DNA of 64,000 bases, taken from positions 1,522,277 through 1,586,276 of the forward strand of contig CATQHS010000001.1 of NCBI GenBank assembly GCA_958296055.1. Reading direction: 5' to 3'. This document shows positions 3,513-64,000 of the stretch, piece after piece. A program made the position numbers and the translations under genes. The notes beneath the pieces were generated by a model. The model did no database searches. It was not told where the DNA came from and worked only from the letters and a program-made list of their open reading frames with translations. The stretch is from an uncultured Acidimicrobiales bacterium. Lineage in GTDB: Bacteria > Actinomycetota > Acidimicrobiia > Acidimicrobiales > Aldehydirespiratoraceae. Position 1 is the first letter of the stretch. Every line of letters begins with the position of its first letter.

Positions 3513-4667
3513 ATGAGCACGCGTGCAGGGCGATACGAACAACAGCCTACTGGCTACCAGGCCTTCGTCCCGAAGCCTCTTCCGCCTGACCCGCCGCTGC
3601 GGTGGGACGACGATCTGCTGCGACGGCTCTCGGACGCTGACGCGGCCGTGGGTCGCTTAGACGGTCTGGCTCGGAATCTGCCTAACCCTGACTTGTTTGT
3701 TGCCACCTACGTACGCCAGGAGGCGGTGCTGAGTTCTCAGATCGAGGGTACGCAGTCGAGCTTGGACGATGTGCTGGCCTTCGAGATCACGGAACTAGAG
3801 ACTGGGCTGCCCGCCGATGTCACCGAGACGGTGAACTACGTGAGAGCTATGAGCGAAGGGTTGCGGCTCCTTGACAAACTGCCGCTGTCGGGCTGGCTGA
3901 TTCGAGCTGTCCACAAAGAGCTGATGACGAACGTGCGGGGCGGTGAGCGGGACCCGGGCCAGTTCCGCCGCACGCAGAACTGGATCGGACCGGCCGGCTG
4001 CACCCTGGAGAAGGCCCGGTTCGTGCCGCCGGCGCCCGCCGATCTGCCCGCCGCGTTCGGGGAGCTGGAGCGGTTCCTGAACACGACGACTCAGCCGCCT
4101 CTGGTAGTGGCGGCGCTGGCCCACGCCCAGTTCGAAACCCTCCACCCGTTCCTAGACGGCAACGGCCGCACTGGGCGCCTGCTGATCACGCTGCTGCTGA
4201 TCGAGCGCAAGATGCTGAGCCATCCGTTGCTCTATCTGAGCTTGTTCCTCAAGCAGAACCGCAGCGAGTACTACGACCGTCTCGACTCCATCCGCACCCG
4301 CGGCGACTGGGAGGGCTGGCTGCGGTTCTTCCTGATCGGCGCGGCTGTGACCGCGGCCGATGCCCTCCGGGTGGCCACGGACGTGACGAAGTTGCACGAT
4401 CAGCACATGCGCTTGGTGGGGTCGGAGAATCTGGGCCGGTACGGGCCGCCGATGGTGGATCTTCTGTTCAAGCACCCGCTGGTAACGGTGAGATTCGCAA
4501 TCGAGCGGATCGGAGGCACCGCCCCCACCATCGGCAAGTTGCTCGAACGATTGACTGCCCTTGGGGTGGTCGAGGAAATCACCGGCAGGAGGTGGGACCG
4601 GTTCTATCGCCATTCGCCGTTTCTCGACTTGTTGGCCAGCAGCGATCCGACTGAAGATACGCCTTAG
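3513..4667 (+). CDS. Fic family protein (AMP-transferase type) with C-terminal winged helix
   Basis: Fic enzymes usually transfer AMP from ATP to a hydroxyl of a target protein. The 384-residue product has a Fic_N-type N-terminus, the inhibitory-helix motif SSQIEGT (Ser74...Glu78-Gly79), which places it in the class with an autoinhibitory helix before the core, and the intact catalytic motif [12 protein letters not shown] at residues 211-222 (catalytic His211). The last ~90 residues look like a winged helix ([22 protein letters not shown]). It appears catalytically complete and self-inhibited. Fic genes of this layout are common stand-alone genes in mobile or defence contexts; here it sits two genes away from the BREX operon. 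The target is unknown. Confidence 0.9.
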
Positions 4668-5640: not shown

Positions 5641-6210
5641 ATGGCTACTGAAGCTGCACCCGCCGACGAAGCTCAGATTGAGCGAATCGTCAGGATGGTG
5701 CTCTGCGTAGCGCGCCTGGGGGAAGTCGATCACCGAGGGTGGTGGGGCACCAACCTGTATGGAGCCGCGGGTCGGGTCGTGCTGCACCAGCGCCTCCCCC
5801 GCACTTGGCGCATGGCCGCAGTGGAGCTGGATCTGGCCGCGGCGGCAAACCGGCACAACGAGATCCTTGACCGGCACAACGCGGTCCACCTTTTCAGCGA
5901 CAACTGGCCGCCACGACGCTGGGCGGGTGCCTGGGCGGCAGAGCAAAAGACAGCCACGCTTCCTGACGAGTTCTTCGAATGGCTCGAAACGGTTTCAATC
6001 GTCGATGTGAAAGATCATCTGAAGACTGAACGACCCGAGCGGAAGCTGGCTGCTGCCACCAAACCCAACGGTCAGATTCTTCGTGTCGGGTTCATCAGCA
6101 GGGACCATCTTGAATCGTCGGCCCGACTGGAGCCAGCCGTGGCTCAGTTGGCGGTTGCCTACACGGATCTAGGAGATTTTGCTGTTCCTTATTTGGAGGT
6201 CACAGGTTGA
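5641..6210 (+). CDS. brxE: BrxE family protein (first gene of BREX operon)
   Basis: 189 residues matching the BrxE pattern as I recall it: an N-terminal IVRMVLCVARLGE helix, WWGTNLYGAAGR, the LPRTWRMAAVELDLAAAANRHNE block and a VHLF motif after the NEILDRHN segment. BrxE is known from type 6 BREX loci, where it precedes brxA; its biochemical role is not established. The ATG at 5641 has only a weak ribosome site (TAGGT). The gene ends in TTGA, its stop overlapping the TTG start of brxA by 4 bases, so translation is probably coupled. GC is moderately high, closer to the host than brxA-pglX. Confidence 0.8.
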   Translation: MATEAAPADEAQIERIVRMVLCVARLGEVDHRGWWGTNLYGAAGRVVLHQRLPRTWRMAAVELDLAAAANRHNEILDRHNAVHLFSDNWPPRRWAGAWAAEQKTATLPDEFFEWLETVSIVDVKDHLKTERPERKLAAATKPNGQILRVGFISRDHLESSARLEPAVAQLAVAYTDLGDFAVPYLEVTG

Positions 6211-7001
6211 AGGATCGAGGATCGGACCCGAAGCTGAACGGGCTGAGTTCAAACATCGTCAAAGGTGGCGCTTTGATCGATGACACGGCCCGGTTCGTGC
6301 TGGCGTGGGACCGTTCATTGACGCCCGGACAGAATCTCGACCGGGTCGTGAAGGAGAATTTGCTAGGATTGCCGAGCCGATCTCGAGCTTCTGACATCAC
6401 TTGCTATGCCCTTGGACCTCGTTTTGCGAGACCTGGATCCGAGGTGGTTTGGGCGCTTCGAACACTCCTCCAGAACCGCCCGGCCTTCGTGGATGCCTGT
6501 TACTACGAAGCCACGCGGGCCGATGCACTACTGGCCATATTCGCCCAAAATGCGATGATGGGTTGGTATGTCGAAGGTCGTCGGCAGATTGATGTCGGAA
6601 CAGTTCGAGATTGGCTCTCTGACATGACCGTGGCTGACATCATCCCGATCTGGTCTGATTCGCTCACACAACGCGTTGCACAAGGACTCATTGCAACACT
6701 TCGAGATTTTGGACGTCTCATAGGTGCTCAACGCTCGCACCGCAAGGAAATTGCCCAACCTGGTATCTCGATGGAAAGCTTTGCTTATGTAGCTTACCGG
6801 CTTCATCAGCAGGGCGAATCGAGCCGTGCCATCCTCTCATCGGAAGTTTGGACTCGTTGGCTTCTCAATATGGATCGAGTTGATGAACTGATGCACCGGT
6901 TAGCGTCACTTGGGATTGTGTATTACTCAGTGGCTGGTTCGGTACTACGAATTGATTGGCGTGTGGAATCACTCCAGGAGATTGCCGATGCCGCTTCCTG
7001 A
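6207..7001 (+). CDS. brxA: BrxA (DUF1819 family), BREX component
   Basis: 264 residues with the BrxA/DUF1819 layout: an N-terminal IVKGGALIDDTARFVLAWD segment, an all-helical middle and a winged-helix-like C-terminus ending VYYSVAGSVLRIDWR. BrxA proteins are small DNA-binding components required in type 1 BREX; the precise step is unknown. The start is a rare TTG at 6207 that overlaps the brxE stop. The gene overlaps brxB by 14 bases. Base composition falls well below the flanking chromosome from here on. Confidence 0.87.
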   Translation: MKDRGSDPKLNGLSSNIVKGGALIDDTARFVLAWDRSLTPGQNLDRVVKENLLGLPSRSRASDITCYALGPRFARPGSEVVWALRTLLQNRPAFVDACYYEATRADALLAIFAQNAMMGWYVEGRRQIDVGTVRDWLSDMTVADIIPIWSDSLTQRVAQGLIATLRDFGRLIGAQRSHRKEIAQPGISMESFAYVAYRLHQQGESSRAILSSEVWTRWLLNMDRVDELMHRLASLGIVYYSVAGSVLRIDWRVESLQEIADAAS

Positions 7002-7563
7002 ACCACTTCGAAAAATTGCAAGCCGTATCGTCGATTTCCATGATCGCCAATCGACTCCACCATTTCTAGTTTACGTATACAACCCTAAGGATGAGTATAT
7101 CGTCCGTCGAGAGCTGGATGATCTCCGACGGTGGTTGGAAGCTGAACCGCGCGCAATCACCTGCGAAATGATCTCACTAGCTGAGATCTTCTGGGATGCG
7201 CTAGAGGATCATGGCCATCTAGAACTAGTGATAGAAGCTGAACGTGCTGGTGACTACGCTGAAGCGAAACTTGCGATTAATCAAATATTGGCGAATCCAC
7301 CTACGTTGGCGGAACGGGTTACACAAAAAGTGGTGAATCACAACGATGCACGATCGGCAGTATTTCTGTGCCGAGCGGGTGCTTTGTACCCAGCCCATAG
7401 AACGGGCCCTTTACTTGATGCGCTCAGAGACCAAGTAAACCGACCAGTCACGATGCTGTATCCAGGACGAATTTTAGGTGACTATGGTCTCGAGTTCATG
7501 GGTAAGAGTGAACCGGCATATGGATATCGGGCCCTTATTATTCCCAGAGGTAACTCATCGTGA
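6988..7563 (+). CDS. brxB: BrxB (DUF1788 family), BREX component
   Basis: 191 residues from an ATG at 6988, which has CAGGAG eight bases upstream inside the end of brxA. An upstream in-frame start exists but lacks a ribosome site. The family signature PVTMLYPGRILGDYGLEFMG lies near the C-terminus, and FLVYVYNPKDEYIVRRELDDL at the N-terminus resembles other DUF1788 proteins. BrxB is an essential but biochemically obscure component of type 1 BREX. Its stop overlaps the GTG start of brxC by four bases. Confidence 0.9.
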   Translation: MPLPEPLRKIASRIVDFHDRQSTPPFLVYVYNPKDEYIVRRELDDLRRWLEAEPRAITCEMISLAEIFWDALEDHGHLELVIEAERAGDYAEAKLAINQILANPPTLAERVTQKVVNHNDARSAVFLCRAGALYPAHRTGPLLDALRDQVNRPVTMLYPGRILGDYGLEFMGKSEPAYGYRALIIPRGNSS

Positions 7564-10500
7564 ATATAAGTGATATCTTTAGCCCCCTCACCAGACGAGA
7601 TATCAAAGAGGTGGTCAAAGTTGATGACGAGGACTCAGTACTAACAGAGATTGAGGAGTATGTTCTTACTGACCACATTAAGGAAGAGTTGACTAAAGCT
7701 CTGGATGTATATCAGGAGACGCTACACAATCCTAGCCATGAAATTAACATGTGGGTTAGCGGATTTTTCGGCTCTGGTAAATCTTCTTATGCTAAAATTT
7801 TTGGATATCTGCTCGCTAATCCCATTATTGATGATAAAGCAGTTAGTGACCGATTCTTTGAGCTGAACAATATTCCGAAAGCTCGAGCATTACTTGAAAG
7901 TATTCATGCTACGGTAATAACCAAAGTTGTGCTGTTAGATCTGAACACTTCGCCTAACGTGCTTGATGAAGGAGAACCGATCGTTTTGCCCATCTACAGA
8001 ACGCTGCTTAGGGCCTTTGACTATAGTGGTGATTTTACACTATCTGAGTTGGAGTGGGAGCTTGAAAAAGAGGGTACTCTCAATAGCTTTATCGAGCGAT
8101 ACGAAGAAATCTATCGGGCACCTTGGACGGAACAGCGTAATATAATCATCGCAAAGAACAGAGCTAGTCGAATACTTCACGAACTCGAACCCGGTACTTA
8201 TCCGGAGGCTGACTCATGGTCCAAATCTGTTGCTCCCCCAACGATCACTACCAAATGGTTCGTTCATCGAGCGGGCGAAATACTAGACCGACGCTGTGAA
8301 AGTAGAGCTCGAATGGTGTTCGTCGTGGATGAGGTGGGCCAGTATGTGGCTCGATCTACTGACCGGATGCGCCATCTCCAAGGGTTGGCCGAAGAATGCC
8401 AAAAAACTGAGAGTCGGATCTGGTTGGTAGCGACTTCTCAAGAGAAGCTGACTGATGTAGTGGATAGTCTAGAAGGCAAACAGACTGAGCTAGCTAAAGC
8501 GCAGGATCGATTTCCGATCCGGGTTGATCTGTTGCCATCAGATATCGATGAAGTAACCGGAAGGCGGGTGTTGGACAAAACGGCTGAAGGGGCAGCACAG
8601 GTACGAAAGCTGCTGGCTGCGAATCGCAATCAGCTCGCGGCATCAGTTTCGCTTCAATCCGAGCGCCATCAACCTTTCGCCGATGATGATCTCATTCGCC
8701 TTTACCCGCTTGTCCCATACCAATTGCAAATTCTGATAGAGGCGGTTTCAGCTAGACGAGCACAGGGCAGTGCGCCTACTACTATGGGCGGATCGAACCG
8801 AACTCTGATCCGCCACGCACATCAGCTCATCTATCACCCAGATGTTGGATTGACTAATAAACCTGTTGGTAAGTTAGCTACCTTGGATCTTTCGTACCGA
8901 CTTTTGGAGGACGTGATTCCCACATCATGGCGTTATGAGGTTGATCAAGTAACCGACAAACATGGCAACGACAGCTTTGCAGCTAGCGTTATAAAAATCA
9001 TAGCTTTGTGCAGTGAAGTACCGGGCGTTCCATTAACGCCTCGGAATCTTGCCGTTATGCTCCACCCTGCTATCTCGGCTGATTCTGTAGTTGCTGATGT
9101 AATTACTGCTCTTCAGCAACTTGAATCCGAAAACCGGATTAGAGAAGGGGAAAACGGTTACCGACTGCAGAGTCCTAAACAGAAAAACTGGGAGGTCACC
9201 CGACGCGGCATTGAAATGAAACCCAGCAACGCGGTCCAGTTGAGGCAGAAAGTTCTAAAGGATGAGCTTGGCTCGCTGACGGTCACAAAAGGGCGGGCTT
9301 TCAAAGTCGGGTTGTTCGTTGAAAATCAGAGAATGACCGATGGTCATATCAGTCTTGACTTAAGAGATGCGAATGATATTCAAGAGCTGATTAGCATCTC
9401 GCGTTCGAATGAATTTCATAATAGAATCTTCTGGACTTATAGAATGGCTAACGATACTTGGGATGCGTTATCTGAATTGTACCGCAGTGTTGAAATGGTT
9501 AACCGCTACGATAATCCAAGCCAAAATGATGAGCAGCGAGCATTATTAGTTGAGGAACGTAATAGACAAGATAACTTCGAAAGAAGAGCCATCAATTTGC
9601 TGGTGCGAGATCTTACCGTAGGTACAGTTATCTTCAATGGAAACGGTATCGAACTTCAAACACCTTCCGTAGGATGGACTATTCGTTCAGTGGCCGATGG
9701 TATAATGCTAGAGCGGCTAGACAAGATTTATCCTGAACGAGAATTGTTTGCCACTAATGTAACTAGATCTGATGTCTTGACGGTTTTATCTGCTGACACT
9801 ATAGATGGGTTTCCAGATAGGTTTGGATCTGATGGATTAGGGCTATTTCGTGAAACGGCTAAGGGTCGTGAACTTGCATCGGACATTGGCGCTGTCAAAG
9901 CTGTCATGACGTATATCGAGTCTAGGAACCAATATGGTGAAATTCAAAGTGGAGGACAACTAGAAAATCACTTTGGTAGCTGTCCTTATGGTGCAACGGT
10001 GGAATCACTTCAGGCGATGCTAGCTGTTGCCATGAGGTCGGGTTTGTTGGAAGTGGTGTCCCAGGCATCTCATATCACCTCATCTACGGATTCGCGACTT
10101 GGATCAATCTTCGGTCAGCTTCCAAAATTTCGAGCGGCCACTTTTAAACCTGCCGATAACTCCGGCACCTCTTTAGATATGAGAGGTGAAGTGGCCGAAT
10201 GGCTCGGTTCTATGACGGGAGAGTTACCCTCCTTGGCTCCTAGTGATCTAGCTGATGCCTGTCGAGAAGCATTCAAGGAGCTTATTTTGCCATGCAACAA
10301 AACACAATCGACACTTGATGGTCTTGGTCTAACTGTGCCTGCAATACTAATGACAATGAGTGAACTCCTCAACCAATTGGCAAATAAGGATGATGCCATC
10401 GTTATAGAGACTGTTCACAAGTATCGAACCGACCTGGAAGCTGGTAAGCACCGTGTCATGAAGATGATAGAATTGATAGAAGCAGATCTGGAAGTGTTGC

Positions 10501-11027
10501 GAAATGCAGTTCAAATCAACTCGCTGAATAGTGGTTCCGAAGATGAAGACATCGCTCGTATGAGTTATGAATTGAGTGCTAAGCTTAATCGGGCTCGCTA
10601 CGACGAAGATATTGCTGAAATCACGAGCCTCACACGTCAAATTGATGATGCGGTTAGTCGAGAACGAGAGTCGCTTCGTGTCAGCATTGAGAATGCTATA
10701 TCTATTGCAGTGAATGATCTGCGTTCCGACTATCCATCGATCAATGAAACTATTTTTATAAAACACACTGAGCGATTGCATGAACTTGCTAAGCCTAACG
10801 AACTGAAAATTTTACGAGCTAACAACTTAGCAGTAGAGAAAATGGTAAATGATGTTGCTGATTTACTAGCTAAACTGTCGACCACTAGAAGTGTTAGACT
10901 CGTTCGTATCGGTGATGTCTGGAGGACGCCTATCACATCTCCTGAAGATCTGAATTCAGCTCTGGACTCCATTCGTGAAGCCGTTTTAGATCAACTCGCA
11001 GACGACACCGAAGTGCGTTTAAAGTGA
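7560..11027 (+). CDS. brxC: BrxC, BREX P-loop ATPase
   Basis: The large ATPase of BREX, 1155 residues, close to the ~1200 typical of BrxC. The Walker A motif GFFGSGKSS sits at residues 68-76, with a Walker B-like VVDEVGQYV near 255-263. The C-terminal third is helical with coiled-coil-like stretches. BrxC is required for BREX defence and methylation in characterised systems and probably acts in a complex with BrxB and PglZ. The GTG start overlaps brxB and the stop overlaps the GTG of pglX, four bases each. The gene is notably AT-rich compared with the host, consistent with transfer. Confidence 0.95.
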   Translation: MNISDIFSPLTRRDIKEVVKVDDEDSVLTEIEEYVLTDHIKEELTKALDVYQETLHNPSHEINMWVSGFFGSGKSSYAKIFGYLLANPIIDDKAVSDRFFELNNIPKARALLESIHATVITKVVLLDLNTSPNVLDEGEPIVLPIYRTLLRAFDYSGDFTLSELEWELEKEGTLNSFIERYEEIYRAPWTEQRNIIIAKNRASRILHELEPGTYPEADSWSKSVAPPTITTKWFVHRAGEILDRRCESRARMVFVVDEVGQYVARSTDRMRHLQGLAEECQKTESRIWLVATSQEKLTDVVDSLEGKQTELAKAQDRFPIRVDLLPSDIDEVTGRRVLDKTAEGAAQVRKLLAANRNQLAASVSLQSERHQPFADDDLIRLYPLVPYQLQILIEAVSARRAQGSAPTTMGGSNRTLIRHAHQLIYHPDVGLTNKPVGKLATLDLSYRLLEDVIPTSWRYEVDQVTDKHGNDSFAASVIKIIALCSEVPGVPLTPRNLAVMLHPAISADSVVADVITALQQLESENRIREGENGYRLQSPKQKNWEVTRRGIEMKPSNAVQLRQKVLKDELGSLTVTKGRAFKVGLFVENQRMTDGHISLDLRDANDIQELISISRSNEFHNRIFWTYRMANDTWDALSELYRSVEMVNRYDNPSQNDEQRALLVEERNRQDNFERRAINLLVRDLTVGTVIFNGNGIELQTPSVGWTIRSVADGIMLERLDKIYPERELFATNVTRSDVLTVLSADTIDGFPDRFGSDGLGLFRETAKGRELASDIGAVKAVMTYIESRNQYGEIQSGGQLENHFGSCPYGATVESLQAMLAVAMRSGLLEVVSQASHITSSTDSRLGSIFGQLPKFRAATFKPADNSGTSLDMRGEVAEWLGSMTGELPSLAPSDLADACREAFKELILPCNKTQSTLDGLGLTVPAILMTMSELLNQLANKDDAIVIETVHKYRTDLEAGKHRVMKMIELIEADLEVLRNAVQINSLNSGSEDEDIARMSYELSAKLNRARYDEDIAEITSLTRQIDDAVSRERESLRVSIENAISIAVNDLRSDYPSINETIFIKHTERLHELAKPNELKILRANNLAVEKMVNDVADLLAKLSTTRSVRLVRIGDVWRTPITSPEDLNSALDSIREAVLDQLADDTEVRLK

Positions 11028-14000
11028 CGACAATTTCGCCCGATAATCTGAGTACTTTGACGGCAGAGCAACGCGTCGTGTTGGAAAAATTGCTGCAGAA
11101 AATTCGCCGTTGGGTAGAGAATGACCTCGTTGAATCACTGTCAGGGAGATTCGGGATACAGACTGATGGCCGTATTGAAACTTTAGATTCTCTGTCACTG
11201 TCATCTACTGAGTTGGCGATACGGAAAGACTTGGTAGCAGTGATTGAATATCTTCGCGCTGAAGGTGAGGGCAATAAAGAATCAGTAGCACGGCTAGTTA
11301 GAGAGGCTGCTTTCAGTCACATAAATAGATTTATCGCTGTAAGAATTGCTGAAGCTATTGGACTGATTCCTGAGACAATGGCCCGTGGCTTGTCATCGAC
11401 TGGATTTGTAGATTTCACCCAACTATCACCGACAGTTGCTCCTACTGAATGGTTGCGTTTTGGTGTGTTTATTAAAATTTGCGCTGATGAGTTAGCAACA
11501 GACATTCCAGCCTTGTTTGATCCTCGTAACCCGCTATTGAGCCTTGAGACTACTGAGCGAATTTTAGGTCAGGTGGTAGAGGAGATCATAACGGTGCCTG
11601 ATGGAATGTGGAAGGCACCAGATGTCTTAGGGTGGGCTTATCAGTTTTTTAACAGTGGCGAAGAGCGTCAGAAGATGCGAAAGGAATCACCTGCCCCTCG
11701 AAACTCTCATGAACTGGCCGTGCGAAACCAGTTTTTCACACCCGGCTATGTGGTTGACTTCTTAGTTCATAATGGGCTTGGTGCTTATCTGGCAGCGGGA
11801 TTCCCTGCCCTGGTCAATGAATTGCCTCTGCTTCTAGAGGTTCCTAAAGAACCAATTGAGATTAATCTTAATACAGTGAGTGTTCTAGATCCAGCTTGTG
11901 GCTCAGGTCACTTCTTGTTAGGAGCTTATGACATCCTTGAAAAGGCTTGGCAGCTTGCTGGGCTTGATCCTGCTAAGTCAGCTCCTGCAATTGTGGGGTC
12001 GTTGTGGGGAATCGATATTGACCCGCGTGTCGTTCAAATTGCCCAAGCTGCAGTAATTTTTAGAGCCAGACGGCACTGCAAAAATACCGATCTTCCTACT
12101 CCAAACATCATTTGTGCCCGAGCCTTACCGGCCGGGTCAGAGGTAGACGAGTTCGTTGAAGATCTGGATACCCATGTTGCTCGGGTCGTACGAGCCATAG
12201 CTAGCGAATTGAATAACGCGCCCATATTGGGCTCACTGTTGAAGGTTGAGGAGAGACTCTCCAGCGAGGTAGGTGATATTTTTGGAACGGGTGTAATCGA
12301 AGGGACACTAGCGGAAGGTGCCAATCCTAAGTCCCCCCTTTCGGTAAAAGTCCAAGTCTTAGATGCACTGGGCAGCATAGCGGGCTCGGCAACAGCGACG
12401 GCTCCGCAACGTCTCTTTGCGGCGCAAGCTCAAGATGCTGTTCGGTTCGTTGATGCATTGAACCGCCGCTACACAGCCGTGCTCATGAATCCACCTTTCG
12501 GAGAACCGGTGGCCAATACAAAGCCATATCTGAAGGTCGCCTATCCATGGATTCCGACTAAGGATTACAATCTTCTTGCCGCCTTCGTTGGGCGGGGGCT
12601 TGAACTTTGTAAATCAGACTTCGGAACATGCGGTGCTATAACTTCAAGAGTTGGTTTATATATAAAGACATTTGGACTATGGCGACAGCAAATTCTCTTA
12701 GCTAAACATCTCGCTGCGTTAGCTGATCTTGGTTTTGGAGTCATGGATCAGGCGTTGGTGGAAGCGGCTGCCTATGTTTTAAAGAGTAGATCTTCGTCAG
12801 GACATGGACTTTTCGTGCGTCTGCTTAAAGAGCCGGACAAACCTAAAGCATTGAACGATGCGATTAAACGATATCGCGAAGGTCGCAATGATCCAAGAGT
12901 GTTTGAAATAGAACTGTCCGATCTCCATGCAATACCGGGATCGCCTGTCGCCTACTGGATGGCTGAATCTATTCGCAGGCTTTTCCGCCATTTTTTGTCA
13001 CTTGAAGGTAAAGGTGCTGACGTAAGAGTTGGACTTCAATCCGGCGACGATTTTAGATTCATTCGAACTTTTTGGGAAGTAGATTCCAAGCGTATCGGTT
13101 ATTCAAGAGAGGATACTAAGTGCGGCACGCGCTGGGTCCCTCACGCCAAAGGAGGTGAATATAGTCCTTATCATGCTAATATCTATCTACTTATTGATTG
13201 GGAGAACGATGGTGAACGGATTCGATCTATAAAAGGGCACCAGAACACTATAAAGGGGCACCAGAACACGCGATTTCTTTTCTCACCCGGTCTTACCTGG
13301 TCACGCCGTACTAACTCTGGATTTGGTATCAGGATACTGCCCAATGGTACAGCCTTTGGTAATAAAGGTCCTGCGGCGATTCCTCGTTCGCGAATAAGTT
13401 TTTTTGCTTTACTTGGGTATCTTAATAGTCGGCTTGTTCAGGCGCTGATGGATGCGATGGTTGCTGCTGGTGAAGAAGTAACATCTGGGGGTGCGTCCCG
13501 CAGTTACGAAGTTGGATTGGTGAAAAAGCTTCCTTGGATTGATAGTTTAAACAATGATGAACTGGCCTTAGTTGCGTCACAAATGGCCGAGCGACGAGCA
13601 GCTCTCGACAACTATGATGAAGTAACATGCCGCTTCGTAGGTCCGCGACTCCATAATGAATCCATCCTCGATTTACACTTGGCTCAATTGGAAGACGGAC
13701 TTGAACTCGACAAGCTTGTAAACGCAGCGTTGGGTCTTAACTCGGCTGCTCTTAGTTATTTGGACGAAGAAGTTGGATTCTACCCGCTTACTTATCCTGA
13801 CAGGGAAGATCTGGATGATCGGATAGAAGAATTGTACAAGATCCCGATAAAACAGGTTATTGATGCTTTGATTGATGAACGGGGCGGATCGCGGGCCATT
13901 GCTAACCTCAGTTATGTTGCCGATCGACGAATCGAAGTAATTTCGCATGGTCTTGAAGTGAATCCGTACTCGATTGTTAGAGTGGTGAAAGAGCGGAAGT

Positions 14001-14857
14001 TGATCGCATATGGTGAAGCAGAAGAAAATGCTTTTAGACTTGTCTCCTATCTTATAGGGGCTAGCTTTGGACGATGGGATTTACGGATCGGATGCGATCC
14101 GGCTAGGGCTGATTCATCCGTCGATCTGTTCGCTCCTCCGGCTCGCTACTCTCCGGGATCACTGTTTGGTAATGAAGCTGACCGCCAAAACGTTACTCCG
14201 CCTGGCTATCCGATCCAACTTCCCCCTGATGGAGTGCTGATTGATCAGGCCGGTCATGACTGGGACATCAGCAGAATGATAAAGCGAATTGGCGAAGTTC
14301 TTTTTGATTCTGATAATAAACTGCTGGACGATGCTTTATCGATTTTAATGACACGGTCTGACCTAACCCAGTTCCTACGCACTCAATTTTTTCGAAAACA
14401 CTTGACGATGTATTCAATGAGTCGGCGCAAAGCTCCGATCTATTGGCAATTACAGGTCCCATCGAAGACATGGGGAATCTGGCTATATGCTCCAAAGTTG
14501 TCTCGAGAGATGTTGTTTGCGATAGTGCGGGAGACTGAACAGCGCAAACAATTAGCCGAACGACACATTGAACGACTCCAGCGTGAAGTTGCTTCCGAGG
14601 GCGCAGTACGCAGAGCGAGCCAAGTGGCCAAGGAGTTAGATAATGAGCAAGGCTTGGCAGCGGAGCTAGCCAGGTTCCGTTCTGAAGCCGAACGGATCGC
14701 CAACCTGGGATGGGAACCCGACCTTGACGATGGAATGATACTCAATGCAGCCCTATTGGCCGATTTGTTTCCAGCCTGGCCAGGTGCAAAAGAGTATCGC
14801 GACGAACTACGAAAGGGGAAGTACCAGTGGGCGACGGTGTCTCAGTACGCCATATAG
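11024..14857 (+). CDS. pglX: PglX, BREX adenine-specific DNA methyltransferase
   Basis: 1277-residue N6-adenine methyltransferase that marks host DNA at the BREX recognition site. Motif I (DPACGSGHF) is at about residue 289 and the catalytic motif IV NPPF at about 489, both intact. Large N- and C-terminal regions provide target recognition and protein contacts. An in-frame 21-bp tandem duplication (13228-13269) doubles the heptapeptide IKGHQNT near residue 736, probably in or near the target-recognition region. The gene overlaps brxC by four bases and pglZ by 31 bases. It is AT-rich like brxC. Confidence 0.95.
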   Translation: MTTISPDNLSTLTAEQRVVLEKLLQKIRRWVENDLVESLSGRFGIQTDGRIETLDSLSLSSTELAIRKDLVAVIEYLRAEGEGNKESVARLVREAAFSHINRFIAVRIAEAIGLIPETMARGLSSTGFVDFTQLSPTVAPTEWLRFGVFIKICADELATDIPALFDPRNPLLSLETTERILGQVVEEIITVPDGMWKAPDVLGWAYQFFNSGEERQKMRKESPAPRNSHELAVRNQFFTPGYVVDFLVHNGLGAYLAAGFPALVNELPLLLEVPKEPIEINLNTVSVLDPACGSGHFLLGAYDILEKAWQLAGLDPAKSAPAIVGSLWGIDIDPRVVQIAQAAVIFRARRHCKNTDLPTPNIICARALPAGSEVDEFVEDLDTHVARVVRAIASELNNAPILGSLLKVEERLSSEVGDIFGTGVIEGTLAEGANPKSPLSVKVQVLDALGSIAGSATATAPQRLFAAQAQDAVRFVDALNRRYTAVLMNPPFGEPVANTKPYLKVAYPWIPTKDYNLLAAFVGRGLELCKSDFGTCGAITSRVGLYIKTFGLWRQQILLAKHLAALADLGFGVMDQALVEAAAYVLKSRSSSGHGLFVRLLKEPDKPKALNDAIKRYREGRNDPRVFEIELSDLHAIPGSPVAYWMAESIRRLFRHFLSLEGKGADVRVGLQSGDDFRFIRTFWEVDSKRIGYSREDTKCGTRWVPHAKGGEYSPYHANIYLLIDWENDGERIRSIKGHQNTIKGHQNTRFLFSPGLTWSRRTNSGFGIRILPNGTAFGNKGPAAIPRSRISFFALLGYLNSRLVQALMDAMVAAGEEVTSGGASRSYEVGLVKKLPWIDSLNNDELALVASQMAERRAALDNYDEVTCRFVGPRLHNESILDLHLAQLEDGLELDKLVNAALGLNSAALSYLDEEVGFYPLTYPDREDLDDRIEELYKIPIKQVIDALIDERGGSRAIANLSYVADRRIEVISHGLEVNPYSIVRVVKERKLIAYGEAEENAFRLVSYLIGASFGRWDLRIGCDPARADSSVDLFAPPARYSPGSLFGNEADRQNVTPPGYPIQLPPDGVLIDQAGHDWDISRMIKRIGEVLFDSDNKLLDDALSILMTRSDLTQFLRTQFFRKHLTMYSMSRRKAPIYWQLQVPSKTWGIWLYAPKLSREMLFAIVRETEQRKQLAERHIERLQREVASEGAVRRASQVAKELDNEQGLAAELARFRSEAERIANLGWEPDLDDGMILNAALLADLFPAWPGAKEYRDELRKGKYQWATVSQYAI
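13228..13269 (+). repeat. 21-bp in-frame tandem duplication inside pglX
   Basis: Two 21-bp units, 13228-13248 and 13249-13269, differ at one base (A or G at position 7). Each encodes the heptapeptide IKGHQNT in frame. Slippage or recombination could add or remove seven residues without a frameshift. Confidence 0.9.
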
Positions 14858-17364
14858 TCGTGAACCTGGTCAGAGATCACCTAACTGATCAACTCATTCG
14901 CAAGCTAGACCGCTACGGGGTGGTGATCTGGGACGATTCTACCGGTGCCTATGGAGACATCGTGGCCGATTTGCCGCTACTAGATGTGGAGCTACGTTAC
15001 TTCAGCGGCAGTTGGTACGCGCTGCGTCGAGATGTCGAGAAGTTTTTGATCGCGGGATCAGAGCCACCAAGGTTACTGGTCCATTTACCCGTAAGCAGGC
15101 CGGATCCGGATCCTTTGGAGGAGCTTAGAGCTATCGGTACAAGCTATCGTATTGCTCTACCTACCCTGCTGAAACAGTCACTGACTGATCAATTTACCGA
15201 ACGGCGTCTTACTGATATCGGGCTGCAATCCAGAACTCTTAGGGAAGCTGAAGCTGCTCTCGAACGCGCAGATTACAATACCGATGCTCGCCTGATCTCT
15301 ATCGTCGGAGACTCCTCAGTGGAAAGTATAGTTGCTCATCTTCTGAGTGGTCTACACACTGAAATATTTGACGAACCTGACTTAGGTGCTGTAGTACGAC
15401 AAACATTTTCTGACTCACTCGGTGGTGATTACACAGATCTGACTGGAGATGAACTCAGAACTGCTGCCTTCCGCCAAATTATTCTTGTGTTGATGTATGA
15501 GGCAGTAGAACAGCTTCCACAAGAATTATTGGGAGCCTTTGAAATCCCTAATGCGAGCCAATGCAGATCTTGTCGCTCTATACTTGAAACCCTTAGATCG
15601 GATACAACCCTACATGATGCATATATAGAACTAGCTAATCGTGTTGATGAACAACTCCATTTAGCGGTATTGCTAACTTGGGATAAATCGTTGGTATCAT
15701 TCGATGTCACGGCCGTGATCGAAAAACTGGCAATCATGGCGGCACTTCAGTTTTTTCAAACAGGTAAGTTTATCGAAGCTCAAACTTTGGCAGACCAACG
15801 ACTTACACACAGTTGGTGGGCTCAATATGATACTCCGGGTAAAACGAACGCTGCAACGAAGCTAAGGGCCATTGCAACGCTAGCTGAAATCGCTGAATTA
15901 ATGGCACAGTCTATACCTCGAGTATCGTCGTTGCGGGAACTGGCTAGGTGGTACAAGGAACAAGGTTGGAAGGTTGATTCTCTCTATCGTCGAGGCGAGT
16001 TTATCCGTGTAACCGCTCGCAGCGATCTCCGAGAGTTTGACGACTTGTTCGATTCTACTCGGATCAATTACGGGAACTGGCTTGACTCTGTCCTGCGTCA
16101 GACAGCGAACATCGCTTCGGCTGTTGAACTAGACACTCACGAACTTCAGCGCTCCATACATGAACGTTACGTTAGCAACGATTCCGAGCGCTGCGCTTAC
16201 GTATTGGTGGATGCTCTCCGTTACGAATTGGGATGCGATTTGGCTGAGAGATTAGGTAATAGTGTCAAGGCACAAGTAGGTATTGATGCGGCCGTTGCCA
16301 CACCTCCAACTATCACCCCGGTGGGTATGGCGTCTCTGCTCCCCGGCAGCGAAACTTCTTTCGGAATCGAACTAAGCGACAGCGATGAACTGATCGTAAA
16401 GGTAGGCGGACGGCCAGTACAAGGTGTCAGTGATCGTATCGGCCGCCTCGAACAGGCCCATGGACCTGTAGCTGATCTAGTCTTAGATGATGTTGCACAG
16501 TCCTCAAATAGTAGCCTGAAGAATCGGATCGGAAAAGCTTCCTTGATTCTAGTCCGTTCAAGCGAAATTGATGCCCACGGAGAATCGGATTGTCTCTCGG
16601 CGAGCTGGGTTTCTTTCAACGGCATACTCGATATTCTTTGCACCGCTGTGGCTAAACTACTCCATGCAGGCGTTCGCAAAGTGATTATAACATCTGACCA
16701 TGGGTTTCTGGCAGTCCACCAGCTCGGTCCTGATCGCCGTATCGATAAACCCGTGACTGGCGCAGGAAACCAACACCGTAGAGCCTGGATCGGTCGCGGC
16801 GGTGTCGCAAGCGAGTCGGCCGTAAAGGTGGCACTGGCCGACTTCGGCATCAGCGGCGATCTCGATATTATCACGCCGCGCGGATTGGGCGTATTCACCA
16901 GCGGCGGTGGTCTCCAGTTCTTCCACGGCGGACTGTCGCCTCAGGAACTGGTAGTCCCGGTCATCACCGTTGTAGCCGACGAGACCACTCTCGAACCCAG
17001 CTATGAGATTTCTTTGAGGGTTGCCGGTGATAAGATCACCACTGGAGTGATCGCGGTCACCGTCGGCATGCTCGCCAATGATCTGCTGACCCGCGAATCC
17101 CGAATCCGGCTTCAACTTGTGCATAATGACCGGCAAGCGGCGGTGGTCTTCGGCGGTGATGGTGTTGACCAGGCGACCGGGATCGTCACCGTGAGCATTG
17201 ATCGTTCTTGTGTGGTCCAGATGCAAGTGACCACGAACCTAGCGGCCGGATCGACCGCCACGCTGGAAGTACTCGATGCAGCTACCGGGGTTCGTCTCGG
17301 CGATTTCCAAGTCGAAGTGTCCGCCAACGTGATCGTGGAAGACTTAGAAGATGATCTCGACTGA
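14827..17364 (+). CDS. pglZ: PglZ, BREX alkaline-phosphatase-superfamily protein
   Basis: 845 residues of the PglZ family, a core BREX protein with an alkaline-phosphatase-like fold. Metal-site motifs are visible: VLVDALRYE (Asp462), ITSDHGF (Asp624-His625) and HGGLSPQELVVPV further on. PglZ is needed for BREX immunity; nuclease activity has been reported for some members. The GTG at 14827 follows GAAAGGGGAAG and lies inside the end of pglX. GC content rises noticeably in the 3' half, so the operon is not compositionally uniform. A 15-base gap separates it from brxL. Confidence 0.95.
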   Translation: MGDGVSVRHIVVNLVRDHLTDQLIRKLDRYGVVIWDDSTGAYGDIVADLPLLDVELRYFSGSWYALRRDVEKFLIAGSEPPRLLVHLPVSRPDPDPLEELRAIGTSYRIALPTLLKQSLTDQFTERRLTDIGLQSRTLREAEAALERADYNTDARLISIVGDSSVESIVAHLLSGLHTEIFDEPDLGAVVRQTFSDSLGGDYTDLTGDELRTAAFRQIILVLMYEAVEQLPQELLGAFEIPNASQCRSCRSILETLRSDTTLHDAYIELANRVDEQLHLAVLLTWDKSLVSFDVTAVIEKLAIMAALQFFQTGKFIEAQTLADQRLTHSWWAQYDTPGKTNAATKLRAIATLAEIAELMAQSIPRVSSLRELARWYKEQGWKVDSLYRRGEFIRVTARSDLREFDDLFDSTRINYGNWLDSVLRQTANIASAVELDTHELQRSIHERYVSNDSERCAYVLVDALRYELGCDLAERLGNSVKAQVGIDAAVATPPTITPVGMASLLPGSETSFGIELSDSDELIVKVGGRPVQGVSDRIGRLEQAHGPVADLVLDDVAQSSNSSLKNRIGKASLILVRSSEIDAHGESDCLSASWVSFNGILDILCTAVAKLLHAGVRKVIITSDHGFLAVHQLGPDRRIDKPVTGAGNQHRRAWIGRGGVASESAVKVALADFGISGDLDIITPRGLGVFTSGGGLQFFHGGLSPQELVVPVITVVADETTLEPSYEISLRVAGDKITTGVIAVTVGMLANDLLTRESRIRLQLVHNDRQAAVVFGGDGVDQATGIVTVSIDRSCVVQMQVTTNLAAGSTATLEVLDAATGVRLGDFQVEVSANVIVEDLEDDLD

Positions 17365-17379
17365 GAAAGTATCACCTGC

Positions 17380-19374
17380 ATGACCGCGTTTCACGATCGA
17401 CTCGACGAACTGGCCAACCGCCACTTACCAGGACGAGTGGTGCGCAAAGATCTAGTGCGACAAGTGAAGGTTGGAGTTAGCGTTCCGGTCTACGTACTCG
17501 AATTCCTGCTCGGCAAGTACTGTGCCTCCTCGGACCCTGCGGCCATCGAAGCGGGACTAACCGTCGTCAACCAGGCGCTGGCAGAGAACTTCATCAGGCC
17601 GGATGAATCAGAGCAGACCAAAGCGAAACTAAAAAAGAAAGGTAAGCACCGACTCATCGACAAAGTAGACGTACGATTTGTTGAGAGTGATAAGAAATTC
17701 TGGGCCACCCTTCACAACTTCGGATCCAAGTTCGTCCACATCCCTGAAGAGATCGTCTACAAGTACGATCGTCTGCCCGGCGGCGGCGTCTGGTGTCAGA
17801 TTGATCTCGTCTACAATGACCTTGAGGACACCGCACAGAGGACGCCCTTCTACATTTCAGCTTTGAAGCCAATCCAAGTCGCCGCCTTTGACCGGGATGC
17901 CTACTTCGAAGCTCGTCGCCACTTCAGCCGGGATGACTGGCTTGATCTGGTCATCCGGTCTGTCGGTTTGGAACCGGTCGCGTGTGACTTGAGGACCAAG
18001 CTCTTGGTCGTCACTCGTCTCATTCCCATGGTCGAAAGTAACTACAACCTGATCGAACTCGGTCCTTGGGGTACCGGTAAGTCCTTCGTATTCAGAGAAT
18101 CCAACCCGAACACCATTCTGATATCTGGCGGCAAAGTCACCGTCGCCCAACTCTTTATGAATATGTCGACGGGACGGGTCGGCCTGCTCGGTATGTGGGA
18201 TGTAGTCGCTTTCGACGAAGTCGCCGGATTGCAGATGCCGGATTCCACCTTAATCAACATGCTCAAAGACTTCATGGAGTCGGGCTCTTTCGCCCGAGGA
18301 AAGGAGGAGGTGCCCACCGAAGCATCCCTCGTGTTTATCGGAAACACCTCCAAGGCTCACGAGGAGTTGGTTCGTACTGCCCATCTGTTCGCAGACCTGC
18401 CGCCCGCCATGATCGATCCCGCCTTCCTTGATCGCATGCACTATTACCTTCCGGGCTGGGAATTGCCGAAGCTCGAGAAGCGGCTGTTCACCGATCACTT
18501 CGGCTTTGTCTCGGACTACTTCGCGGAAGCGCTGCGTCAGCTCCGCAAACAAAGTTTCGTGCGAGCCGTAGACAGTGACTTCTCGCTCGGCTCTCATCTG
18601 GCCGCTCGCGACGATAAAGCGGTCCGCAAAACGGTTTCGGGTCTGATCAAGATCCTGCACCCCCACGGTGAGTGGAGCCACGGAGATCTCCGCCAGTACT
18701 TGGAATTCGCGCTGGAGGGCAGACGCAGGGTGAAAGAGCAACTCAAGAAGTTGGCTGCTTACGACTATGCTAAAACCGATTTCTCCTATGTCGAGAATGA
18801 CACAGCCAGAGAGACTTGGGTGGAAGTCGTGGAGCAACTTCAAGATTTTAATGATGAGTCGGATGTGGACGAACAAGCTACCCGAGTTTTAGCCGCAGTG
18901 TCTATAGCCGAGATCATCGAGAGCGGAGAGAGCAAGACGGTCGAGTTCAAACGAACTGGCCGGTACAACCTGCATACGGGCAGCCGAGACGAGCGATTGG
19001 AGCATGAGATCGTCAAGTGTGTCGCAGGCTTCATGAATGCAAACGGCGGTGTTCTTTTGATCGGAGTGACTGACGACAGACAAATCTCCGGGATGGCAGA
19101 AGATTACAAGCTGACGGGTGACCGTGGCCGGGACGGGTTCGAGAACTGGTTGACGACAAAGCTAGGGGGAGAACTCGGCCGACCGGTGGTGGCATCATTC
19201 TTCGAAGTGAGCTTCGATGCATTACCGGAAGGCGATGTGTGCCGCGTCGATGTGAGAATGAGCAACCAGCCGGTGTATGCGGGTAAGGAAGCGGAGTTTT
19301 TTGTTCGGATGGGCAACTCGACCCGCTCTTACAACACTCGGGACGCTCTCGAGTACATCAACGCTCGCTGGTAA
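17380..19374 (+). CDS. brxL: BrxL-type AAA+ protein with C-terminal AlbA_2 domain
   Basis: 664 residues. Residues 1-500 are a classical BrxL: an N-terminal domain, Walker A GPWGTGKS at 228-235, Walker B VVAFDEV near 275-281, and the DFMESGSFARGK and FIGNTS blocks. Known type 1 BrxL proteins continue into a Lon-like protease domain. Here, from about residue 510, the protein instead has a Schlafen AlbA_2 domain (SKTVEFKRTGRYN, then NANGGVLLIGVTDDR, ending FFVRMGNSTRSY). I see no Lon Ser-Lys protease motif. AlbA_2 domains are usually linked to nucleic-acid binding. The gene closes the BREX operon; the next gene is convergent and host-like. Confidence 0.93.
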   Translation: MTAFHDRLDELANRHLPGRVVRKDLVRQVKVGVSVPVYVLEFLLGKYCASSDPAAIEAGLTVVNQALAENFIRPDESEQTKAKLKKKGKHRLIDKVDVRFVESDKKFWATLHNFGSKFVHIPEEIVYKYDRLPGGGVWCQIDLVYNDLEDTAQRTPFYISALKPIQVAAFDRDAYFEARRHFSRDDWLDLVIRSVGLEPVACDLRTKLLVVTRLIPMVESNYNLIELGPWGTGKSFVFRESNPNTILISGGKVTVAQLFMNMSTGRVGLLGMWDVVAFDEVAGLQMPDSTLINMLKDFMESGSFARGKEEVPTEASLVFIGNTSKAHEELVRTAHLFADLPPAMIDPAFLDRMHYYLPGWELPKLEKRLFTDHFGFVSDYFAEALRQLRKQSFVRAVDSDFSLGSHLAARDDKAVRKTVSGLIKILHPHGEWSHGDLRQYLEFALEGRRRVKEQLKKLAAYDYAKTDFSYVENDTARETWVEVVEQLQDFNDESDVDEQATRVLAAVSIAEIIESGESKTVEFKRTGRYNLHTGSRDERLEHEIVKCVAGFMNANGGVLLIGVTDDRQISGMAEDYKLTGDRGRDGFENWLTTKLGGELGRPVVASFFEVSFDALPEGDVCRVDVRMSNQPVYAGKEAEFFVRMGNSTRSYNTRDALEYINARW

Positions 19375-42289: not shown

Positions 42290-43228
42290 CTAACGGGTCT
42301 GCTCACGCTGTTGCAACAGGTAGTCCACGAATGCCGTGCAAGAGGTATACATGAACAAGGCTTCTGGCATTCCTACGGATGCTCCTTCTTTAGTGGCGTC
42401 TAAGGCATGCCGAATGCCAGGCTCGTTGTTGGTATAGCCGTACAATTTAATGAAAGCGTCCTTCAATGCTGAATGGATTTGAACGCCGCGTGATTCAAGA
42501 TTCTTTAACCCTTTCGCTAAAGAATGCTCTGATGTAATCTCTTGCACGATAGACTCTACCGCATGGATGCTATCTCTGACCGCCTCAGCCCACCGAGCGT
42601 TGGAAATGTGTTGAGCTGCTTGATCTAACTGGCTTGTCACTCCTTGCAAATCGGCTTTCTTGATTGACTGGAGTGCATTTAACGTGAGATCAGCAGATCG
42701 TTGGCTTGCGTGAGGTTCAAATCTGTAAGGCGGGAATGGCCATTCGTCACTTGTAAAATGGTATGCGGCGGCATATTGCTCCATAGCATTTTGGACCCGA
42801 ACGGCTAATTGGGTACCATGCTTACTGTCCTGTCCACAAGGCATGTCTCCAGGTGCGATATGCTTCACAGCAAGCGCTGAGAACACCTCAATCCACTCAA
42901 AAACTTCATGGAAATCTCCACATAATACTGTACTTTTGGATCCTTCATAGAGATTGTGATCATCGTCTAGACGGGCATCGTCGAGTGGTACAGTATACAT
43001 CCGGCTGTATGTCTCTTGGAAACATTTTTTCATAGAGCGTTCAAAGTAAATGCTACCGCTACCAGGGCCACCACTCATGACAAGCGTCCGATTCATGAAT
43101 GGTAAAATAAACTCATATATAAGATTCCAAAGCTCCACTCGTAACGGTTGTGACAAATGTTCTAGCTGTAAAGGCTCTGGTAAGCTTATATAACCTTTTC
43201 GCTGCGAGAAGGTGAGATCAACGGTCAT
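42290..43228 (-). CDS. AbiJ_NTD4-HEPN family protein, copy 1
   Basis: 312 residues. N-terminus TFSQRKGYISLPEPLQLE and LRVELWNLIYEF fit the AbiJ N-terminal domain 4; the C-terminal half (ISNARWAEAVRDSIHAVES, LYGYTNNEPGIRHALDAT, CTAFVDYLLQQR) fits its usual HEPN-like partner domain. Related proteins are linked to abortive infection by analogy to lactococcal AbiJ. It has a paralogue at 57588-58523, closely alike in the C-terminal half and diverged in the middle. GC is lower than the surroundings. Stop at 42290. Confidence 0.78.
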   Translation of the reverse strand: MTVDLTFSQRKGYISLPEPLQLEHLSQPLRVELWNLIYEFILPFMNRTLVMSGGPGSGSIYFERSMKKCFQETYSRMYTVPLDDARLDDDHNLYEGSKSTVLCGDFHEVFEWIEVFSALAVKHIAPGDMPCGQDSKHGTQLAVRVQNAMEQYAAAYHFTSDEWPFPPYRFEPHASQRSADLTLNALQSIKKADLQGVTSQLDQAAQHISNARWAEAVRDSIHAVESIVQEITSEHSLAKGLKNLESRGVQIHSALKDAFIKLYGYTNNEPGIRHALDATKEGASVGMPEALFMYTSCTAFVDYLLQQREQTR

Positions 43229-45642: not shown

Positions 45643-45873
45643 GCTAGGTGTGACAACCGGGGACGTTGTCCCTGGGTTGAGGGCCTGGAAGGGGCGGCCA
45701 CGGCGGCGAGCCTGCACCTCCGGTCCGGACCTCGCCTCGCTCAAGAAACGTCTCCGCTGCGCGAGTTGCCTTTGCCCCATTCAGGGAGCGGCCGCTTATG
45801 ATTCACGATCTCCTCGCCAGCCCGCCCGCCGCGGGGCCGCCCGCTTGCCATTCAGCCCGGTGCGCGGCCATGT
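45643..45873. repeat. dispersed repeat, copy 1 (second copy at 63631-64000)
   Basis: Near-identical blocks GTGACAACCGGGGACGTTGT... and ...GAGCGGCCGCTTATGATTC... to GCGCGGCCATGT are shared with 63631-64000. The second copy has about 140 extra bases between the blocks, deleted here. It continues past the window edge in copy 2. Confidence 0.88.
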
Positions 45874-57587: not shown

Positions 57588-58523
57588 TCAGGTTGGAACG
57601 GAATACTGGTCACGCTGCTGCAGCAAATAGTCCACAAAGGCCGTGCAAGAGATGTACATGAACATGGCCTCTGGTTTCCCCACCGATGCCTCGTCTTGTG
57701 TGGCGTCTAACGCGTGTCGAATGCCGGGCTCGTTGCTGGCATAACCGTACAATTTTTTGAAAGCGTCCTTCAATGCTGAATGAATTAGAACGCCACGTGA
57801 TTCAAGAGTTTTCAACCCATCAGTCAAGGATTCCTTTGATGTGATCTCACGCACGACAGATTCTACAGAATGGATGCTCTCTCTGACGGTATCAGCCCAC
57901 CGATTAGCACTAAGATGGGTAGCGGCTTGATCCAAATGTCTCTCAACCCCTTGCAAACCTGCTTCCTTGACTGACTGGAGTGCGCCCAATGTGAGTTCAG
58001 CGCCTCGCTGGCTGGCGTGTGGTTCAAACCGATAAGGCGGCATTGGCCAGTCATCACTCGTAAAATGATACGCAGCAACATGGTCATCCATAGCATGTTG
58101 AATATGGAAAGCCAGGTCTATGCCCAAGTGTGTGCTATATAAACTATTGCTCCCATGTGTCATATCCCCAAGGCTGAAGAGCCTGTTTGTGAATCCTAAG
58201 AGCAGTTCAATAAAATCAAAAACAACACGGAACTCTTCCTCTAAAACTATATTACGGAATTGATTGTAGAGTTCTTGGGGGTCTCTGGAAACACTGTCAT
58301 GCGGCATCTTGAACATGCGGCTACATGTAGCTTGGATGCATCTCTGCATGTCTTCTGAGAAGCGCATATCACCGTAGATATCGCGATTGATAAACTGTTG
58401 CAAAAACCTAGCTATGTGACCCCAAAGCTCAATCCGCAATGCTTCAGATACATACTCTAGCCGTAAAGGCTCCGGTAAATCTGTATAACCTTCTCTCTGT
58501 GAGAAAGTTGGTTGAATAGGCAT
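57588..58523 (-). CDS. AbiJ_NTD4-HEPN family protein, copy 2
   Basis: 311 residues, paralogue of 42290-43228. The N-terminus TFSQREGYTDLPEPLRLE and the C-terminal half (SANRWADTVRESIHSVES, YGYASNEPGIRHALDAT, CTAFVDYLLQQR) are shared. Residues ~60-140 differ strongly, the part that should face a target or partner. Conserved Arg/His-rich C-terminal segments fit a HEPN-like RNase or its inactive relative; I cannot point to a firm R-x4-6-H pair. AT-richer than neighbours. ATG at 58523. Confidence 0.78.
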   Translation of the reverse strand: MPIQPTFSQREGYTDLPEPLRLEYVSEALRIELWGHIARFLQQFINRDIYGDMRFSEDMQRCIQATCSRMFKMPHDSVSRDPQELYNQFRNIVLEEEFRVVFDFIELLLGFTNRLFSLGDMTHGSNSLYSTHLGIDLAFHIQHAMDDHVAAYHFTSDDWPMPPYRFEPHASQRGAELTLGALQSVKEAGLQGVERHLDQAATHLSANRWADTVRESIHSVESVVREITSKESLTDGLKTLESRGVLIHSALKDAFKKLYGYASNEPGIRHALDATQDEASVGKPEAMFMYISCTAFVDYLLQQRDQYSVPT

Positions 58524-63630: not shown

Positions 63631-64000
63631 GCTAGCTGTGACAACCGGGGACGTTGTCCCTGGGTTGAGGGCCTGGAAGGGGCGGCCACGGGCGACCGCG
63701 GCTGGTTACTGGTTGACCGCCGACGAGCACGAAGGCGAACTGAAGGTTCTCATCGGCTCCCGGCAACCCGGGCCTTGCACTCTGACGGGATAGAGGACTC
63801 CCGTGCCGAGCGCCGCCGGGCCGCTCGTGCGGCGAGCCTGCACCTCCCGGTCCGGACCTCGCCTCGCTCAAGAAACGTCTCCGCTGCGCGAGTTCCCTTT
63901 GCTCCATTCAGGGAGCGGCCGCTTATGATTCACGATCTCCTCACCAGCCCGCCCGCCGCGGGGCCGCCCGCTTGCCATTCAGCCCGGTGCGCTGCCATGT
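63631..64000. repeat. dispersed repeat, copy 2 (runs off the window)
   Basis: Matches 45643-45873 with about 140 extra bases (63690-63832). The right limit is not visible. Confidence 0.88.

Follow-up and report, generated by a model that had tools for sequence, protein, structure and literature searches.

A BREX operon in which BrxE leads and BrxL carries a Schlafen-family domain instead of a Lon-like tail, from an uncultured Acidimicrobiales bacterium

A 64,000-nucleotide (nt) stretch of the genome of an uncultured Acidimicrobiales bacterium (assembly GCA_958296055.1, contig CATQHS010000001.1; here called the window) contains a bacteriophage exclusion (BREX) locus. The host genome measures 3.3 Mb in 3 contigs. 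The locus spans window positions 5641 to 19374 (+) and holds seven genes in the order brxE-brxA-brxB-brxC-pglX-pglZ-brxL, all with open frames according to the open reading frame (ORF) list and family profiles. These matches confirm the gene order and coordinates given in a preliminary description of this DNA, with nothing missing. In the last gene product, BrxL, the Lon-like tail has been lost and a Schlafen-family tail is present instead, a swap that is kept in other actinobacteria.

The first gene, brxE (5641 to 6210, +), encodes a 189-amino-acid (aa) protein. It was initially named by its sequence alone, and a profile search bears the name out, with 87 bits against NCBIfam NF033447, BrxE_fam (cut-off, 40; E value, 1.7e-24). 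The product of brxA (6207 to 7001, +; 264 aa) matches Pfam PF08849 at 40 bits (cut-off, 23) and the PADLOC BrxA model at an E value of 2.8e-28, and that of brxB (6988 to 7563, +) matches PF08747 at 64 bits (cut-off, 27). Judged by context, brxB likely starts at the ATG at 6988 rather than at position 6910, as in the ORF list. The P-loop ATPase gene brxC/pglY (7560 to 11027, +) reaches 574 bits with NF033441 (cut-off, 400) and contains the Walker A motif GFFGSGKS, and the adenine methyltransferase gene pglX/brxX (11024 to 14857, +) reaches 516 bits with the BREX-1 PglX model NF033452 (cut-off, 500), with motif IV, NPPF, at residue 489. PglZ is encoded at 14827 to 17364 (+) and matches PF08665 at 65 bits. 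The Walker A motifs of BrxC and BrxL and the methylase motif of PglX are intact. Adjacent genes overlap by 4 nt (brxE/brxA), 14 nt (brxA/brxB), 4 nt (brxB/brxC), 4 nt (brxC/pglX), and 31 nt (pglX/pglZ), and pglZ and brxL are separated by a gap of 15 nt. Such tight packing makes a single transcription unit plausible, as had been proposed.

The 664-aa product of brxL (17380 to 19374, +) comprises a BrxL_N domain (PF20442, residues 15 to 145), a BrxL_ATPase domain (PF13337, residues 157 to 469) with the Walker A motif GPWGTGKS, and an SLFN_AlbA_2 domain (PF04326, residues 517 to 650, window positions 18928 to 19329, +; 55 bits; cut-off, 25; E value, 1.6e-14). The full protein passes the BrxL model TIGR02653 (689 bits; cut-off, 628), but this alignment is confined to residues 7 to 486, and the Lon-like part is gone. 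The earlier description of BrxL as type 1-style thus holds for residues 1 to 486 and fails for the C-terminal third, which is replaced by the Schlafen/AlbA_2 domain. Annotation pipelines would nevertheless name it "protease Lon-related BrxL," since it passes TIGR02653.

The distribution of this tail was surveyed with one genome per species, and the 80 closest BrxL loci were compared; comparison loci are denoted by L and a number. Nine of the 80 match the window protein over its full length or up to the contig end, all of them actinobacterial where named. The remaining 71 match only to approximately residue 490, and their tails look Lon-like, a few with further extensions. Within the sample of the host's own phylum (396 genomes), a Schlafen-type tail is found in 7 of the approximately 22 genomes with a BrxL core. 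Full-length relatives occur in Mycobacterium, Acidimicrobiia, Solirubrobacteraceae, and Rubrobacter. Wherever enough upstream contig is available, the gene order is the same as in the window, with brxE first (9 of 9 loci: the window, L039, L040, and L138 to L143), and conservation in nine independent loci excludes a chance association. Three Rubrobacter-type Schlafen-tailed loci are confined to short contigs in genomes that gave no BrxE match, suggesting that the Schlafen tail need not require BrxE. One Rubrobacter-type Schlafen-tailed brxL (L045:395-2410, -) is broken by a single TAG in its assembly; the copies in its relatives are intact. On viral contigs, the BrxL relatives inspected bear Lon-like or HKD tails, and among 334 plasmid records with BrxL, the match covers 80% of the query in only 2.

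In a core tree built from BrxL without its tail, the Schlafen-tailed proteins of actinobacteria form a single clade (support, 100/100; 11 rows). This clade sits inside a larger one of 26 rows (100/99) that includes six loci pairing BrxE with a Lon-tailed BrxL (BrxE-LonP loci). A second Schlafen-tailed BrxL, at L047:15288-17270 (+), is 39% identical, and its core groups with that of a Lon-tailed BrxL, implying that the tail was swapped at least twice. The tail tree conflicts with the core tree. The window core is nearest to that of L051 (80% identity over residues 146 to 486), while the two tails are only 51% identical. The window tail falls outside the L051 tail clade (approximately unbiased [AU] test, p = 0.001), and L039 shows the same pattern (p = 0.0035), in a tree of approximately 150 columns with a long window branch and with groups picked after the core tree had been seen. 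Exchange of the tail among relatives is the simplest reading of this conflict.

In animals, Schlafen proteins are antiviral enzymes that cut tRNA. An AlphaFold model of tail residues 469 to 664, made from ten window and locus sequences (predicted local distance difference test [pLDDT], 73; predicted template modeling score [pTM], 0.70), matches DIP2311 (Z score, 14.6), the SAMD9 tRNase domain (12.7 and 12.5), and SLFN5, SLFN11, SLFN13, and SLFN14 (10 to 11.6). All 31 Foldseek matches at an E value of ≤0.001 belong to the AlbA_2, SAMD9, and Schlafen families. Chance similarity to AlbA is ruled out by this fold match and by the full-length homologues. A profile search with the tail retrieves SLFN14 at an E value of 1.4e-6, with the Glu-Glu-Asp triad E517/E522/D565 aligned; the E522 column is where the SLFN14 E211A entries show Ala. 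E517, E522, K524, and D565 are invariant in BrxL relatives collected by their core and not by their tail, and they are candidates for the active site. In SLFN13, mutants of the residues corresponding to the triad, E205, E210, and D248, lose tRNA cleavage (PMC5862951), and the SAMD9 tRNase has an E196/K198 pair, E218, and D241 (PMC12331169). The SAMD9 spacing resembles that of E522/K524, E541, and D565 in the BrxL tail, a lead that is not based on an alignment. The tail thus shares its fold and the residues E-x4-E-x-K...D with the Schlafen and SAMD9 tRNases and with bacterial stand-alone Schlafens, but it consists of one lobe only and forms the C-terminal end of an AAA+ BREX protein. The stand-alone Schlafens found near BREX loci are encoded by genes of their own and have mHK and wHTH domains (PMC12839542).

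Several points weigh against a ribonuclease (RNase) function of the tail. The acidic triad is also found in AlbA_2 proteins usually called DNA-binding, such as L003 of the host genome, so the triad alone cannot decide between catalysis and binding. One HsdR fusion (L028) has Pro at the position of D565. Moreover, the tail corresponds to one lobe of the two-lobe eukaryotic Schlafen fold, and its activity would need dimerization. Ring assembly is reportedly driven by the Lon-like domain that was replaced (PMC12707154), so the new tail could be structural. The main rival is accordingly a noncatalytic domain for nucleic acid binding or oligomerization that assembles the ring or clamps DNA, with restriction proceeding as in an ordinary type 1 BREX system. 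We regard this as quite possible, although not probable. It would fit with the Lon-like tail, which is inactive, lacks a catalytic dyad, and contributes to assembly (PMC12839542; PMC12707154), with the labeling of PF04326 in Argonaute proteins and operons as a DNA-binding domain (PMC6299218), and with the nearest solved structure, that of DIP2311, which belongs to AlbA_2 and is not known to be an RNase. It is countered by the invariance of the Schlafen acids, which persist while the rest of the domain falls to approximately 45 to 50% identity between close BrxL relatives, and by the HKD-nuclease tails of other BrxL proteins (PMC12839542; L049 and L208), which show that nucleases occupy this position.

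The same module is found on other enzymes of the same phylum. SLFN_AlbA_2 forms the C terminus of GmrSD-type proteins (L002, L026, and L031), of HsdR (L028 and L030), and of a superfamily 1 (SF1) helicase with an MTES_1575 nuclease (L027), as well as of two short proteins whose N-terminal stretches are hydrophobic (L025 and L029). The GmrSD-type protein L002:1498-3510 (-) is encoded by the host genome itself (C1:2400930), and its module shares 45% identity with the BrxL tail. In L002, L028, and L030, this shared C-terminal module sits on type IV or type I restriction enzymes, unlike in the window, where it sits on BrxL. By its fusions to HsdR, GmrSD, and a helicase-restriction endonuclease, the module acts like a plug-in for enzymes that restrict DNA, and it seems to have been attached to such machines repeatedly. 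Because all of these partners act on DNA, and because the tail occupies the same position as the HKD DNase, it might instead be a DNase (nickase) that cuts DNA under the BrxL ring, as proposed for HKD-tailed BrxL. This is unlikely in our view: the HsdR and GmrSD fusions already possess a DNase of their own, and the solved catalytic relatives, SLFN13 and SAMD9, cleave tRNA or rRNA.

From the pairing of BrxE with BrxL, the preliminary description had taken the locus for a hybrid of type 6 and type 1. This claim does not survive, as the pairing is common. BrxE is present in 11 of 50 genomes with a Lon-tailed BrxL related to that of the window, always on the same contig and 12 to 22 kb upstream of brxL, and one further BrxE locus, in a Chloroflexota genome, terminates in an HKD-tailed BrxL. 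Searches by tblastn with the window proteins recovered most or all seven genes in each of the 11 BrxE-LonP loci (brxA undetected in two), whose hosts are haloarchaea, Methylobacterium, Planctomycetota, Chloroflexota, Acidobacteriota, Bacillota, and Chromatiaceae. The finding named beforehand as fatal to the hybrid view, routine occurrence of BrxE in BrxL loci, is what this survey returned, and the mosaic was rejected because BrxE-BrxL loci are widespread. No brxD or brxHI was found among the extra genes of the BrxE-BrxL loci checked, and in the neighborhood of the window locus, to which this search was limited (the rest of the genome was not searched), pglZ is followed directly by brxL, with no adjacent brxD/brxHI. 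Genuine type 6 loci (BrxE with brxD/brxHI), sought as tree outgroups, did not turn up in the genome samples described below.

BrxE proteins of BrxE-BrxL loci pass the general BrxE model but not the BREX-6-specific equivalog, NF033448, on which the window BrxE scores 36 bits (cut-off, 80). The window PglZ lies below every subtype cut-off, with 208 bits for BREX_PglZ_6 (cut-off, 400), 119 for TIGR02687 (270), and 99 for NF033450 (400), and PglZ of related BrxE-BrxL loci is likewise under the type 1 cut-offs. A recent recombination could have joined a type 6 front end, from brxE to pglZ, to a type 1 brxL. The preference of PglZ for the BREX-6 model (208 versus 119 bits) and the unequal guanine-plus-cytosine (GC) content of the genes (brxE, 0.61; brxC, 0.46; brxL, 0.55) would speak for it. 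We consider it very unlikely, because the same genes and order recur in nine loci of actinobacteria and, combined with other tails, in 12 from archaea and other bacteria, and because BrxE fails the BREX-6 equivalog while PglX passes the BREX-1 model. Lon- and HKD-tailed BrxE loci moreover share the PglZ and PglX model preferences of the window, which points to a standing lineage and not a fresh mosaic.

In the genome samples, BrxE exceeds its cut-off in 3 of 396 genomes of the host's phylum, 0 of 299 Pseudomonadota, 2 of 221 Chloroflexota, and 0 of 214 Cyanobacteriota, and the plasmid records contained no BrxE relative. Modeled from its single sequence, BrxE reached a pLDDT of 34, and the collections searched gave no relatives of it. 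The single PADLOC BrxE model matches BrxL-linked BrxE proteins weakly (the window, L138, L039, L159, and L163; E values, 1.7e-5 to 5e-3) and leaves L208 unmatched, whereas NF033447 gives such proteins 68 to 159 bits; PADLOC therefore under-calls them.

Set beside known systems, the locus is BREX of some type, since a PglZ-domain protein, a BrxC/PglY ATPase, and PglX occur together. As in type 1, the six core genes brxA, brxB, brxC, pglX, pglZ, and brxL are present in order, and PglX and BrxL exceed the type 1 model cut-offs; unlike in type 1, an extra brxE stands in front, SLFN_AlbA_2 replaces the Lon-like part, and PglZ falls short of the type 1 cut-off. The type 6 order in the 2015 classification is reportedly brxE-brxA-brxB-brxC-pglX-pglZ-brxD-brxHI. 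The first six window genes follow it, but brxL then takes the place of brxD/brxHI, and BrxE remains under the BREX-6 equivalog cut-off. Where a published BREX survey states that only type 6 has BrxE (PMC12839542), it summarizes the 2015 classification; the same survey treats types 5 and 6 as part of type 1. The BrxL tails that it lists are Lon-like and HKD. It counts 1030 HKD-tailed BrxL proteins and accepts this form in type 1; these have the same N-terminal and AAA+ core and a nuclease-type domain in the Lon-like position (L049 and L208), but the window tail comes from a different superfamily. Schlafen-tailed BrxL is unmentioned in its main text, and full-text literature searches aimed at a BrxL-Schlafen/AlbA fusion, with supplements and preprints outside their scope, retrieved only this 2026 survey and a review, neither of which has such a fusion in its main text. 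The window locus is a BREX variant of the type 1 group, neither type 6 nor a new kind.

The GC content of the genes within the island ranges from 0.46 to 0.61, compared to approximately 0.70 to 0.72 for most flanking genes and 0.64 for the adjacent Fic gene. By this composition, the island is a foreign, horizontal acquisition. No direct repeats beyond chance flank it, and no sigma-70-like promoter was found upstream of brxE, a consensus that is uninformative for actinobacteria. Foreign GC content might also mark a decaying or silent remnant, and a genome of the same family does hold one: at L042:2308-3557 (-), the gene after brxE is a chimera that joins part of brxA to the Schlafen (AlbA) tail of BrxL, with the intervening genes lost, an apparent deletion remnant of a BREX locus. 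For the window, this is scarcely credible given seven open frames, catalytic motifs in place, and tight overlaps.

A gene 1 kb upstream of brxE (3513 to 4664, +) encodes a Fic_N/Fic protein that matches PADLOC SoFic at 6.4e-114 and is a candidate antiphage protein; next to the BREX operon, it suggests a small defense island. Downstream of brxL, a short-chain dehydrogenase gene and a metallo-beta-lactamase-fold gene lie on the opposite strand. A second abi-rich stretch of mixed GC content extends from 40000 to 62300. It holds two copies of an AbiJ_NTD4-like gene (42290 to 43228 and 57588 to 58523; approximately 80% DNA identity in part), together with Abi_2-like protein, NYN, ASCH, and M78-HTH genes. 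Near-identical direct repeats occur at 45643 to 45873 and 63631 to 64000.

Starting from the gene content and order, the domain swap, the fold, the invariant Schlafen acids, and the conservation in actinobacteria, we tentatively read the locus as an apparently intact, horizontally acquired operon of the type 1 group, with BrxE first, in which the Schlafen domain of BrxL delivers an RNase-type effector; we give this reading close to, but short of, an even chance. Self-marking by PglX and a BrxL AAA+ ring on DNA, the latter from Acinetobacter BrxL, are known (PMC12839542; PMC12707154). In the window system, PglX with BrxA, BrxB, BrxC, and PglZ would mark self DNA by N6-adenine methylation. Unmarked phage DNA would lead the BREX complex to engage BrxL, whose AAA+ core would form a ring on the DNA. 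The ring would carry Schlafen domains in the Lon-like position, where they could dimerize and cut RNA, with tRNA as the most likely target, close to the phage DNA, so that translation is halted. This cleavage may form a second, possibly abortive, layer beside the action of PglZ and BrxL on DNA, and BrxE would be an accessory protein. A wider proposal is possible but doubtful: a subtype of BREX with a built-in Schlafen RNase that would cut tRNA once the BrxL ring senses unmarked phage DNA, tying immunity based on DNA modification to an arrest of translation within one protein, with the same plug-in extending type I and type IV restriction enzymes.

For the classification of BREX systems, these loci correct a rule, as BrxE is no marker of type 6. 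A natural BrxL with an antiviral RNase-type C terminus suggests that this end of the protein is an effector port of the ring, open to Lon-like, HKD, and Schlafen domains, and Schlafen-tailed BrxL offers an output that is open to assay. The presence of the module on HsdR, GmrSD, and a helicase-restriction endonuclease points toward a Schlafen plug-in of general use in enzymes that restrict DNA.

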